The translations under genes were made by a program, and so were the position numbers. From an uncultured Planctomycetaceae bacterium (GTDB lineage: Bacteria; Planctomycetota; Planctomycetia; Pirellulales; UBA1268), in assembly GCA_903917235.1 (NCBI GenBank), contig CAIWZS010000148.1, forward strand, positions 1-33,973: a DNA stretch of 33,973 bases, written 5' to 3'. This document shows, piece by piece, positions 18,680-22,910 of this stretch (its first letter is position 1; every line of letters begins with the position of its first letter). The notes below the pieces were generated by a model. The model was not told the DNA's origin. It made no database searches and saw only the letters and a list, made by a program, of their open reading frames with translations.

Positions 18680-18846
18680 GGCCCGGATGCGTCAACCTGC
18701 GATCATAGGCAGCCCGTCAGGCGGGGCATACTGGGCGGTCTGGCGTCGGGGAGATGGGTCGACCGGCGCCCCTTCCGCAGTCCCCACCGGCTGGGTTCAA
18801 GGCTCCGCCGAGGACACGACGATGGTCACTGCGGACCCCCGGGGTG

Positions 18847-19152
18847 ATGCGGATGAAGGTGCTCGCGAGGATTCCGGAGTTGCCGTGCTCCCCGTCGCAT
18901 GACGGCGGGACGCTGCGGGACTCCGCCTCCGTCCTGGTCACGACGCCCGCCCCGCCATCACCCCCCCACGCCGCACGGTCGACGCAGACCCGCTCGTCCA
19001 CCACCTCCATCCTCGCACTGGCGATGATCGCTGCCGCGATCTGGTCCGTCGTGGCCTGGCGCGAGCGACGGCCGCAGGGTGACGGGCGCGCTGCCGTGCA
19101 GGTGGCAACCCAGGTCGAGACGGTCGCCCCGGCCGGGGAGCACGTCCGCTGA
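18847..19152 (+). CDS. Small single-pass membrane protein, first gene of a three-gene overlapping cassette
   Basis: TM segment SILALAMIAAAIWSVVAW followed by a basic stretch; stop overlaps the start of the next ORF by 1 nt (TGATG). Alternative start 18853. Confidence 0.6.
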   Translation: MRMKVLARIPELPCSPSHDGGTLRDSASVLVTTPAPPSPPHAARSTQTRSSTTSILALAMIAAAIWSVVAWRERRPQGDGRAAVQVATQVETVAPAGEHVR

Positions 19153-19937
19153 TGCTCGACGCAATCGACTCCGCGTTTCTCTCCCGCTGGCAGGACCACG
19201 CCGGCGGCGGTCTGGTCCCGAACGGCGCCGCCGCTCGACTCGCAGAGCCGGACGTGGCGGTGCGTGGAGTGCCGGCGTCGACGCCGGACGACGCCACGCC
19301 TCCGGCGATGCGCGCCGCGACCGACGACATCGACGCCGCGGACATCGTCCCGCTCCCTCCGCCGGCCGCCGCCGGCCCCGGGCGGGAGCGCAGCGCACGC
19401 ATGATGCCTCCGACTCCGCTCGCTGATGCTTCGCTCGCCGACGCTCCGCTGGTCGACCGCCTGCTCAGGGCGGCCTGGGATGATTGGCACGCACTCGCCG
19501 CGTGCGTGGAGGACGCGCGGCTCGCAGGGCGGCGCGTGATCGCCGTCGCCGGCAGTCGGCCCGGCGAGGGGCGGACCACGCTGGTGGCGTGTCTGGCCGC
19601 GGCGCTGCGGGCCCGCGGACGGGACGTGGTGTGTGCGCAGCCCCACGACTGCGCCGAGGCCGCCGGCGCGGGAAGCCGCCTCCACGACCGCAGAATCGTG
19701 CTCCTCGACGCGGGCGTGTGGTTTCCACCCGGTCCGCTCCATCGGCAGCGGCTGATGGTCTCGAGCCTCGGCGTCGACGCGGCCATCCTCGTGCGCCGGG
19801 CCGACGCCCCCGGCGGCACGGCGAGGCGTGCCGCGCTCGAGTCGCTCGGCATCGAGGTGCTGGGCGAGGTGCTGACGTTCACTCCGACGGGCGAAGCGGC
19901 CGTCGGGACCGCCGGCCCCGGAGACGACGCGCGATGA
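19152..19937 (+). CDS. CpsD/BY-kinase-like P-loop protein with degenerate nucleotide-binding motifs
   Basis: VIAVAGSRPGEGRTTLVACLAAALRARGRDVV (Walker A-like, Lys replaced by Arg); DAAILVRRADAPGGTARRAALESLGIEVLGEVLTF resembles the C-terminal part of BY-kinases. Confidence 0.72.
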   Translation: MLDAIDSAFLSRWQDHAGGGLVPNGAAARLAEPDVAVRGVPASTPDDATPPAMRAATDDIDAADIVPLPPPAAAGPGRERSARMMPPTPLADASLADAPLVDRLLRAAWDDWHALAACVEDARLAGRRVIAVAGSRPGEGRTTLVACLAAALRARGRDVVCAQPHDCAEAAGAGSRLHDRRIVLLDAGVWFPPGPLHRQRLMVSSLGVDAAILVRRADAPGGTARRAALESLGIEVLGEVLTFTPTGEAAVGTAGPGDDAR

Positions 19938-20632
19938 ACGAGGGCACCGGCGGGACCGGCATGCAGGAACACACCCGAGCGGCCGCGGCGCCGCGTGGCC
20001 CGGTGACGCTCACCGCCGGCCAGGAGGCGGCCCTCGCCCGCCTCGGATTCGCCCTCGAGAGGCCCGGCAGCGTGGCCGTGCTCTGCGGGCCCGCCGGCAC
20101 GGGGACGACCGGCGTGCTCGACCGTCTGGAGGCCTGCGCATCGCGTTCGTGCCGGGTCACGCGCACCTCCCTCCGCGACTGGCACGACGGCGCCCCGGTG
20201 CATCCGGCCGATCTGCTCATCGCCGACGACGCCCACGCCGCCACGGCGGACACGCTCGGCCGGTTCGTGCGCCTCGTCCAAACCCGCGATCCGGCGACGA
20301 GGCTCGTGCTCGCCGGTCGCGGCAGGCTGTTCACCCTGCTCTCCCGTGACGTCGGACTGGAGTCGCTCGTGACCCTGCGCGCCATCCTCCACCCGTTCTC
20401 ACCGGAGCAGACCGCAGCCGTGCTCTCCACCACCTGCGCGGCGGCCGGCGTTCCTCCTGACGCACTCGCGGAGTGCGCCGACACGATCCACGAGATCGCA
20501 GGCGGCATACCCGCCACGATCGTCGCCCTCGCACGGGTCGCGCTCGTCATCCGATCGTCGGACCCCGCGCGGCGTCTCGTCGGGGAGGACATCGAGCTGC
20601 TGCATCGTCGCGTGTCGCTCGACGCCGCGTGA
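19934..20632 (+). CDS. ExeA/GspA-like AAA ATPase-fold protein lacking the Walker A lysine
   Basis: SVAVLCGPAGTGTTGVLDRLEA (Walker A-like with Thr instead of Lys), Walker B-like DLLIADDAHAATADTLGRFVRLVQ; ATGA overlap with the preceding gene. Confidence 0.72.
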   Translation: MNEGTGGTGMQEHTRAAAAPRGPVTLTAGQEAALARLGFALERPGSVAVLCGPAGTGTTGVLDRLEACASRSCRVTRTSLRDWHDGAPVHPADLLIADDAHAATADTLGRFVRLVQTRDPATRLVLAGRGRLFTLLSRDVGLESLVTLRAILHPFSPEQTAAVLSTTCAAAGVPPDALAECADTIHEIAGGIPATIVALARVALVIRSSDPARRLVGEDIELLHRRVSLDAA

Positions 20633-20653: not shown

Positions 20654-21898
20654 CGACGCCGCACGCGCGAGCATCGCGGCGACCGAGTCGGGACCGGGTG
20701 GCGTGACGCATCGGTCGGCGGCGAACGGCGTCGCATCCAGCTCGGGCCGGCGCCCCTCCACGAGGTCCGCGATCATCACCGCGGTGCCCGTCGATTGGTG
20801 CAGCCCGGCGCGGAAATGCCCCGCGGCGACGAAGACGTTGTCGAGGCCGGGCACCGGACCGATCGTCGGCAGACCGTCGAGCGACCCCGGACGCAGTCCT
20901 GCCCAGACCCGCTCGACCCGTGCCCCCGACAGCGTGCCGAGCATCTCTTCGGCGAAGCCGCGGAGATGGCCGACCACGTCGGCCGTGGCGGTCGCGGTGA
21001 AGCCCGCGTCCTCCAGCGTGGAGCCGACGAGCAGGCGACCGTCGGGACGAGGCACGAGATACTCGAGGCCGCGGTTCACCACGCGTCCGAGCATCTGCCT
21101 GGCGAGCGCGAGGAGCACGATCTGTCCGCGAATCGGCCGCGTTTCGACCCGCAGGCCGAGCGCCCGCCCGAGCGGCCCGCTCCAGGCACCCGCGGCGAGC
21201 ACGTAGCATCCGGCCCGCACCGTCCCTCCGCCACCCGACCCGTCGAGCCGCACGCCGCGCGCGCGGCCGCCGCTCGTCTCGATGGCATCCACCGCGCCCC
21301 CACGGATGATCTCCACGCCCCGCGCCCGACAGGAGCGCTCGAGCGCGGCGAGGTGCCGCGGCGGCCTGATCCGCCGTTCCTCCGGCAGCAGAAACCCGGC
21401 GACGACCTCCCCTCGTGTCACGGCATCCGCGAGCGCCGGCTCGAGGCTGGACACACCTGCTCCGTCGAGCCACTCGCACCGTGCACCGCGGCTGAGCCAG
21501 TCGGCACGCACCCCGCGGAGCCGCTCGATCGCCTCCGTCGAGCGCGCAAGGTGGAGTCCGCCGCATTCCTGCAGCTCGTTGTCGATGCCCGTCTCGTCGC
21601 GCAGATCGACCGACCACTGCCGGTGCAGTCGGTCGCTCCACGCGGTCAGGCGCGCGTTGGCGGGCGCCGTCGCCCATGCCGGTGCCGGCGGAAAGATCCC
21701 CGCCGCCGCCCAGGACGACGTCGCCCGGGGTTCGTCGCGCGCAAGCACCCGGACCGACCGGCCCCGGCCGGCGAGTTCGCGGGCGATCGACAGGCCGATG
21801 ACGCCCCCGCCGATGATGCAGCAGTCGGTCGGCCCGGCTCCTCCGGTCACGTGCTCGGAGGCCGGACGGCGTCCATGCGGCTCCGCGTCGTCAGGCAT
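20642..21898 (-). CDS. thiO: FAD-dependent oxidoreductase, glycine oxidase (ThiO)-like
   Basis: CCIIGGGVIGLSIARELAGRGRSVRVL dinucleotide-binding motif; C-terminal WAGLRPGSLDGLPTIGPVPGLDNVFVAAGHFRAGLHQSTGTAVMIADLV typical of DadA/ThiO. Confidence 0.88.
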   Translation of the reverse strand: MPDDAEPHGRRPASEHVTGGAGPTDCCIIGGGVIGLSIARELAGRGRSVRVLARDEPRATSSWAAAGIFPPAPAWATAPANARLTAWSDRLHRQWSVDLRDETGIDNELQECGGLHLARSTEAIERLRGVRADWLSRGARCEWLDGAGVSSLEPALADAVTRGEVVAGFLLPEERRIRPPRHLAALERSCRARGVEIIRGGAVDAIETSGGRARGVRLDGSGGGGTVRAGCYVLAAGAWSGPLGRALGLRVETRPIRGQIVLLALARQMLGRVVNRGLEYLVPRPDGRLLVGSTLEDAGFTATATADVVGHLRGFAEEMLGTLSGARVERVWAGLRPGSLDGLPTIGPVPGLDNVFVAAGHFRAGLHQSTGTAVMIADLVEGRRPELDATPFAADRCVTPPGPDSVAAMLARAASERP

Positions 21899-22910
21899 TG
21901 ACCGGGATGTCCGCACGATCCGCGATGTTCACCCAGACGTGGACGTGCGGCGAGCCACGGAAGTACCACACGAACGACGGCCCCTCGAGCCGCCAGTTGT
22001 CCCACACGCCGTCGTCGCCGATGTCGCCCTGGCGGTAGAACGCGAGCCGGCACCGGTCGAGTCCGCCCTGTCGCTCGAGGCAGCCGCGGACCTCCTCGCG
22101 ATCCGCCGTGCGGAACGGTTCGAGGAGCACCGCGAGCACCCGCTCCACCTCCCCGCGCTGATCGGGCGAGAGGTCGCTCAACGGGATGCCGGGCAGCCCT
22201 TCCCCCGGTCCGCGGAATCCGACGGCGGCCTCCTTCGGCGCCTGCTCGACGAGTGCCTTCGTCCGCTGCGCCCCGTCGAGCATCCCGAAGACACGGTTGG
22301 CCGCGACGGCCTGCGGCCAAAACACGTTGCCTGCGTGGTCCCGCTCCTCGTTGAAGGCACCGGTGTCGTGCCCGTAGAAGATCGGGCCGCCGAAGGCGAC
22401 GCTCTCGGCCGAGTCTCCGTCGCAGCGCAGCGTCATGTGGCGTCCCGTCAGCAGGAACTGGAACGTCCCGCTGCCAGGCTCACCGAGCAGCGCGATCGAC
22501 TGGTGGTGCCCGAAGCCGCCGCAGTCGTCCTCCATCTGCTTGTCGAACCGCCCGTGCCAGTCGGGCTCGATGAGCGACTCGAAGATCTCCCGCACGAGCC
22601 GCTGCTGGTCCTTGGTGAAGAAGTCGCCCGCCACGGTCGGCTTCGTGGCGTTCCAGTTGTTGCCGATCCTGGTGCGGAGCAGCCCGAACTTCGGGTGCCG
22701 GTAGTCCCAGGGAAAGCAGACCTCGGCACGCTGCGTCGGCGAGAGCGAGGCATGCAGTGTCGCGGCGAGCGACTCCGCGGTGCGGCCCGCGGCGGGCGCG
22801 TCTGCGGGCGAGGCGGCCAGGGCGCCCGAGCCGCAGGCGGTGACGATGCCGGCGCAGCCGGCGGCGCCCGTGAGAAGGTGACGGCGGGAAACGGGTTTCA
22901 TCGTGGCCAT
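21891..22910 (-). CDS. DUF3500-family secreted protein with Tat-like signal
   Basis: N-terminal SRRHLLTGAAGCAG; body and C-terminal WRLEGPSFVWYFRGSPHVHVWVNIAD match DUF3500 from memory; SD-like aggag 7 nt before the ATG; overlaps thiO by 8 nt. Confidence 0.8.
   Translation of the reverse strand: MATMKPVSRRHLLTGAAGCAGIVTACGSGALAASPADAPAAGRTAESLAATLHASLSPTQRAEVCFPWDYRHPKFGLLRTRIGNNWNATKPTVAGDFFTKDQQRLVREIFESLIEPDWHGRFDKQMEDDCGGFGHHQSIALLGEPGSGTFQFLLTGRHMTLRCDGDSAESVAFGGPIFYGHDTGAFNEERDHAGNVFWPQAVAANRVFGMLDGAQRTKALVEQAPKEAAVGFRGPGEGLPGIPLSDLSPDQRGEVERVLAVLLEPFRTADREEVRGCLERQGGLDRCRLAFYRQGDIGDDGVWDNWRLEGPSFVWYFRGSPHVHVWVNIADRADIPVNA

Follow-up and report, generated by a model that had tools for sequence, protein, structure and literature searches.

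A stand-alone trio of genes for a small membrane protein, a BY-kinase-fold pseudokinase and an ExeA-type AAA+ protein in planctomycetes

Organization of the locus

The window, i.e., the whole stretch of 33,973 bp analysed here (an uncultured Planctomycetaceae bacterium; GenBank contig CAIWZS010000148.1), contains three consecutive reading frames, in the following termed A, B and C (ORF1 to ORF3). ORF1 and ORF2 share 1 nt (TGATG), ORF2 and ORF3 share 4 nt (ATGA). The coordinates (Table 1), reading frames and both overlaps had been given in an earlier note on this DNA, and all of them were borne out. The same is true for its description of the locus as a stand-alone one: the trio is flanked by metH and thiO, and no polysaccharide genes adjoin it in the window. 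Within the family to which the window belongs, A was delimited in 31 loci; it overlaps B by 4 nt in 19 of these and by 1 nt in 5, and B and C overlap by 4 nt in 24 of 36 loci. Because homologues of all three ORFs occur in synteny, and most of them overlap in the same way, the trio constitutes more than a chance arrangement. In a few loci (L043, L055, L063, L072, and L074) A was left undelimited by the script used; a TM-bearing ORF is nonetheless seen in the position of A in L055, L063, and L074. Beside thiO, and syntenic there through most of the family, a DUF3500 protein with a twin-arginine-like N-terminus (SRRHLL) is encoded (positions 21891-22910 of the window).

Table 1. Positions of the genes and sequence features of the trio locus in the window
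Feature	Position	Strand	Remarks
ATCATAGGC-N14/15-GGCATACTG	18702..18733		near-invariant in 12 family genomes
TCAAG-N15-CGACGATG	18797..18824	+	just upstream of ORF1; in 12 of 12 aligned family genomes, with constant spacing
ORF1 (A)	18847..19152	+	101 aa; small single-pass membrane protein (predicted)
Motif VLARIPEL of A	18859..18882	+	conserved in family; order form [VI][LIVM]x[RHK..][LIVFM]P
Predicted TM helix of A (SILALAMIAAAIWSVVAW)	19006..19059	+	from hydropathy
ORF2 (B)	19152..19937	+	261 aa; BY-kinase-fold protein
Degenerate P-loop of B, GSRPGEGRTT (R for K)	19551..19580	+	no K in any homologue
ORF3 (C)	19934..20632	+	232 aa; ExeA/TIGR03015-clade AAA+ protein
Walker A of C, GPAGTGTT (K to T)	20087..20110	+	Walker B region and conserved arginines kept

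Two conserved elements are situated between metH and ORF1, a region for which Rfam yielded no RNA element of note. The first of them, ATCATAGGC-N14/15-GGCATACTG, reads TATGCC-N17-TATGAT on the minus strand and is, judging from this arrangement, a plausible promoter of metH; as such, it would mark the divergent start region and not the trio itself. The second, TCAAG-N15-CGACGATG, is unlike a sigma-70 promoter. It has a single exact match (0 mismatches) in the window, exact copies in the family genomes are found almost only at the trio locus, and the copy in L062 is one letter off. It is likely a promoter or operator of the trio. A shared regulon connected by this element was considered as well and rejected, since the family genomes carry the element almost only at the trio.

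Distribution and inheritance

B and C were searched for in 60 genomes, i.e., the window's own and 59 relatives. The named matches are planctomycete MAGs, several of which are evidently lake-derived, going by their isolate names. Among the 37 genomes of the window's family (f1), 35 (with 36 loci) contain B immediately followed by C; the other two have a completeness of 51%, and all genomes of the family above this value have the pair. One genome (G016) contains two trio loci (L056 and L057), each with metH and thiO, due to either a duplication or the presence of two strains in one MAG.

A search with the B alignment (A1) resulted in a match in 106 of the 109 genomes of the order, which presumably corresponds to Pirellulales. 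Most of the order genomes possess a stand-alone B of around 270-560 aa, and many contain Wzc-type proteins of 700-830 aa in addition. The three genomes without a match all belong to family f9, and in G044 and G081 of this family a stand-alone B is not clearly present. Concerning the neighbours of B, C adjoins it in 37 of the 42 order-level B loci read, and a TM-bearing A precedes it in most of these 42. The same trio occurs in f68, a second lineage of the class, with the motif of A in part of f68, whereas matches to B in the wider phylum are nearly all marginal and many of them are of Wzc length. Conserved co-occurrence of the three genes, the lack of which would have refuted the reading in the earlier note, is thus found across the family, the order, and the second lineage of the class. 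Single absences from these draft genomes may be gaps. In nearly every sampled genome of the order, the trio is retained as a free-standing unit that is apart from capsule and secretion genes. Family f9 (G061, G072, G090, G044, and G081) is the single family of the order where the trio seems to be missing, and a comparison of its cell biology with that of the rest of the order could reveal the function of the trio.

In 35 of 36 family loci, the gene metH is the divergent upstream neighbour of the trio (the remaining locus stops at a contig end), and in 20 of 42 order loci it lies beside the trio; thiO is situated downstream in some order members, as it is in the window. The recurrence of the metH-linked position indicates that the trio is inherited vertically in place and is not a mobile cassette. 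The same adjacency might be taken to mean that the trio regulates methionine or C1 metabolism. However, about half of the order, and likewise the second lineage of the class, have the trio without metH beside it. Conserved gene order suffices to explain the link, and we regard a regulator of this kind as highly improbable. A functional tie between the trio and metH was accordingly rejected as plain gene order, half of the order being devoid of the link.

The membrane protein A

Compared to Pfam, NCBIfam and PDB sequences, the matches of the window proteins were too weak on their own, and relatives were therefore collected for all further comparisons. For A, the profile searches yielded no confident family match. 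Homologues of ORF1, the existence of which the earlier note had left in question, were found, and they carry a conserved motif. In the family, A is a short ORF that ends at or overlaps the start of B. It typically starts with M[KR]V[LI]ARIPxL, which is followed by a linker rich in Pro and Arg, a single TM helix, and a short tail; the only hydrophobic stretch in ORF1 comprises residues 54-71, and the topology is probably N-in. Translation of A may start at the ATG at 18853 (MKVLARIPEL), which is the position used in most relatives. The pattern [VI][LIVM]x[RHKTSQGV][LIVFM]P is situated ahead of the TM segment in 24 of 36 order-level A proteins (0.93 expected; maximum of 5 in 500 shuffles), a figure that is descriptive, because the regular expression was written after the family motif had been seen. 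ORF1 is under weak purifying selection in the family (dN/dS 0.71). The conserved motif and the single TM helix argue for A being a genuine partner in the trio.

The pseudokinase B

B begins with an N-terminal helix (MLDAIDSAFL), followed by a disordered linker and a degenerate kinase-like domain, which has a pLDDT mostly above 90 in the AlphaFold model of the window protein. Its fold is that of BY-kinases: all 10 PDB matches at E<=0.001 belong to this group (BceF, CapAB, Etk, and Wzc), with TM-scores of 0.30-0.37 on the query, so that the structural match is a distant one. At the level of the order, B matches the profiles TIGR01007 and TIGR03018; for the class homologue L177, the match to TIGR01007 reaches an E-value of 3e-24, under the curated cut-off. 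The labels by which B had been called CpsD-like and C ExeA-like thus hold both by profile and by fold.

The lysine of the P-loop (Walker A, GxxGxGK[ST]) is present in none of the 86 B homologues (0 of 33 in the family, 0 of 42 in the order, and 0 of 11 in f68) and is mostly replaced by R or C. By contrast, it has been kept in 8 of 10 Wzc-type proteins that served as control and are from the same phylum, for the most part even from the same genomes. Two Wzc-type proteins of the order, L210 (MEGRTT) and L216 (MEGCTT), are also without the P-loop lysine; its replacement is therefore not wholly private to the trio. A C-terminal tyrosine cluster (at least 3 Tyr in the last 25 residues) is likewise found in none of the 86 homologues, but it is not universal in the control Wzc proteins either (4 of 10). 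The Walker A' motif (hhhDxD) occurs in 26 of 42 order-level and 11 of 11 second-lineage B proteins and in 0 of 33 of the family, where B has lost a segment preceding Walker B as well as the DxD motif. Order-level B proteins have a conserved motif, MSxLDxAFIxAY, at the N-terminus, which is present in a looser form elsewhere. A dN/dS of 0.41 indicates purifying selection on B. With the kinase lysine constantly absent, B would be a rare example from nature in which a BY-kinase fold is retained solely as an adaptor.

Since B also matches profiles of the MinD, ParA, BcsQ, and CpaE type, and a set of three proteins that includes a single membrane anchor would be in keeping with this, the trio might be a positioning system, with A as membrane receptor, B in the role of MinD, and C as AAA+ partner, that places the bud site, a pole, or an envelope machine. 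MinD/ParA dynamics require both binding and hydrolysis of ATP, however, and none of the 86 B homologues retains the P-loop lysine; furthermore, the best folds for B are BY-kinases and not MinD. We consider a positioning role to be quite unlikely. The MinD/ParA/BcsQ deviant-Walker ATPases in general (including the KGGVGR-variant AAA proteins, NF047398) are related to B distantly, at the level of the superfamily, and an arginine variant of the P-loop is described there, whereas the signature KGG motif is missing from B: a deviant Walker A with signature lysine (KGGxGK[ST]) was found in none of the B homologues.

The AAA+ protein C

C consists of an AAA domain only (232 aa in the window, 273 aa in the order), is cytosolic, and contains neither a TM segment nor a peptidoglycan-binding domain. 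Order-level C proteins match TIGR03015 over the full length (E around 1e-50, under the cut-off), and the combination of AAA_22 and TIGR03015 in the order members assigns the domain to the ExeA clade. The predicted structure of the window protein (pLDDT 90.9) exhibits an AAA+ fold, with Hda, ORC, RuvB, RFC, and MuB as PDB matches.

The Walker A motif GxxGxGK[ST] is intact in every order-level C read. In the family, its lysine is kept in 25 of 36 C proteins and replaced by T or V in 11, which corresponds to 6 changes on the family tree, at least 4 of them by well-supported branches. The lysine was thus lost repeatedly and independently (about 4-6 times), with these losses limited to the window's family and including the window. 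The earlier claim that both ATPase-like proteins are devoid of the Walker A lysine is therefore correct for the window genome (GSRPGEGRTT in B, GPAGTGTT in C), but does not describe a property of the system: the loss in C is local to the family, whereas the absence in B extends to every homologue. For the pair of the window and G006, neither of which has the lysine, dN/dS of C is 0.24, compared to 0.25 for ThiO, and another pair of lysine-less C proteins yielded 0.23; according to these low values, C is still selected as a protein after the loss of its lysine. Repeated loss within one family constitutes a natural experiment on the need for the ATPase.

Relation to described systems

The trio shows INDEPENDENCE from the known machines, in that it does without exosortase, Wza, a kinase of the Wzc type, or a strong secretin. 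The window genome (93% complete) contains no match to exosortase, Wza, or Wzc-type proteins. Exosortase (PF09721) is without a match in five f1 genomes in which the trio is present (G000, G022, G026, G033, and G035), and G026 and G035 are without a match to Wza as well. Several f15 genomes possess B without exosortase, and two f9 genomes (G044 and G081) have exosortase but no clear stand-alone B. Strong secretins are found in f9, which has no trio, whereas in f1, which has the trio, secretin matches are weak, partial, or, as in G023, none. As these are draft genomes, any one absence is uncertain, yet the pattern is repeated from genome to genome. Exosortase, Wza, and secretin as obligate partners were rejected on the basis of this presence and absence across genomes.

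The arrangement is similar to that of the XrtA/PEP-CTERM pair (TIGR03018 and TIGR03015), in which a BY-kinase-type and an ExeA-type protein are also adjacent and whose profiles are matched by order-level B and C, respectively. Scores, however, are below the curated cut-offs (25-83 bits compared to 230.65 for B; 172-177 bits compared to 324.5 for order-level C). The trio furthermore lacks exosortase, Wza, and a polysaccharide locus and occurs also in exosortase-less genomes; it possesses A in place of a Wzz-type chain-length protein, and its B is without the P-loop lysine. The shared pair of families might mean that the trio is the relic of an exopolysaccharide or PEP-CTERM chain-length module (Wzz-like anchor, tyrosine kinase, and TIGR03015 ATPase) that was stripped of its polysaccharide genes and is undergoing decay in the window's family, and the lost P-loop lysines and DxD motif, the dN/dS of 0.71 for ORF1, and the missing exosortase and Wza matches in the window genome would be in accordance with this. 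Yet purifying selection acts on B and C, in the case of C with the same strength as on ThiO, no family genome above 51% completeness is without the trio, and Walker A of C is intact outside the family. The stand-alone state is common to the whole order, which argues against recent decay, and we regard a relic as unlikely.

With the BY-kinases (CapA/CapB, Wzc, Etk, and BceF), the trio shares the fold of B and a gene for a small membrane protein directly upstream, as is CapA for CapB. B differs from them by lacking GxGK[ST], the tyrosine cluster, and a canonical ExxRxxR, and A by having one TM segment, no Wzz domain, and a different motif.

ExeA and ExeB, according to one publication (PMC4098917), form a complex that is needed for secretin assembly. 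The trio resembles ExeA/ExeB (GspA/GspB) in combining an AAA+ protein of the ExeA clade with a single-pass membrane partner, and a role as GspA/GspB analogue, i.e., as assembly factor for a secretin machine (type II secretion system or type IV pilus), could be derived from this. C, however, has neither the TM nor the peptidoglycan-binding part of GspA, a pseudokinase is present as third partner, and there is no dependence on secretin, given the contrast between f9 and f1 mentioned above; such a role appears very unlikely to us.

Among open-licence papers, none was found that describes the trio. Its parts are known folds; no described system was found that would accommodate their combination, the order-wide stand-alone occurrence, and a kinase lysine that is missing throughout.

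Proposed mechanism

The reading that we favour, with about an even chance of being correct, is that the trio is a membrane-tethered assembly of pseudokinase and AAA+ scaffold at the envelope, with A as anchor, B as adaptor, and C as a switch that is passive in some lineages. A would anchor the putative complex in the inner membrane, and its N-terminal motif might serve as docking site for B and/or C. B would be an oligomeric adaptor and not a tyrosine kinase, and its conserved N-terminal helix (MSxLDxAFIxAY) might dock on C. C would use ATP in most of the order to switch or assemble the platform, by analogy to ExeA/GspA with ExeB, and the target of the platform would be a process of the envelope or the cell surface. 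The module seems to be streamlined in the window's family, and in lineages that have lost the Walker lysine of C, the window's included, C probably represents a passive scaffold.

An envelope role is thinly indicated, by the relatives of B and C and by a PMT-like neighbour: in some order members a PMT-like membrane glycosyltransferase adjoins the trio, and it constitutes a lead for the client of the latter. In a wider sense, and somewhat more tentatively, the trio might represent a class-level, undescribed planctomycete envelope module. In this membrane-anchored assembly, an ExeA-type AAA+ ATPase would depend on a catalytically dead BY-kinase-fold protein as its obligate adaptor, and neither polysaccharide export nor PEP-CTERM sorting nor secretins would be needed; in some lake lineages, the module would be devoid of any intact nucleotide-binding site. 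The trio is a near-universal gene set of one order, in a group with unusual cell biology.

Further ExeA-type genes

In two families of the order, a second ExeA-type AAA+ gene (L191:2479-3399 in G000:C290, and L080:9791-10618 in G048:C8), possibly another conserved stand-alone one, has as its neighbour a gene identified by eye as that of an RsmE-like methyltransferase. The window's own genome furthermore contains an open frame of 621 residues (L190:331-2193, G000:C498) with an ExeA-type AAA+ domain (TIGR03015, E 7e-35), in which GPAGTGKS is intact.
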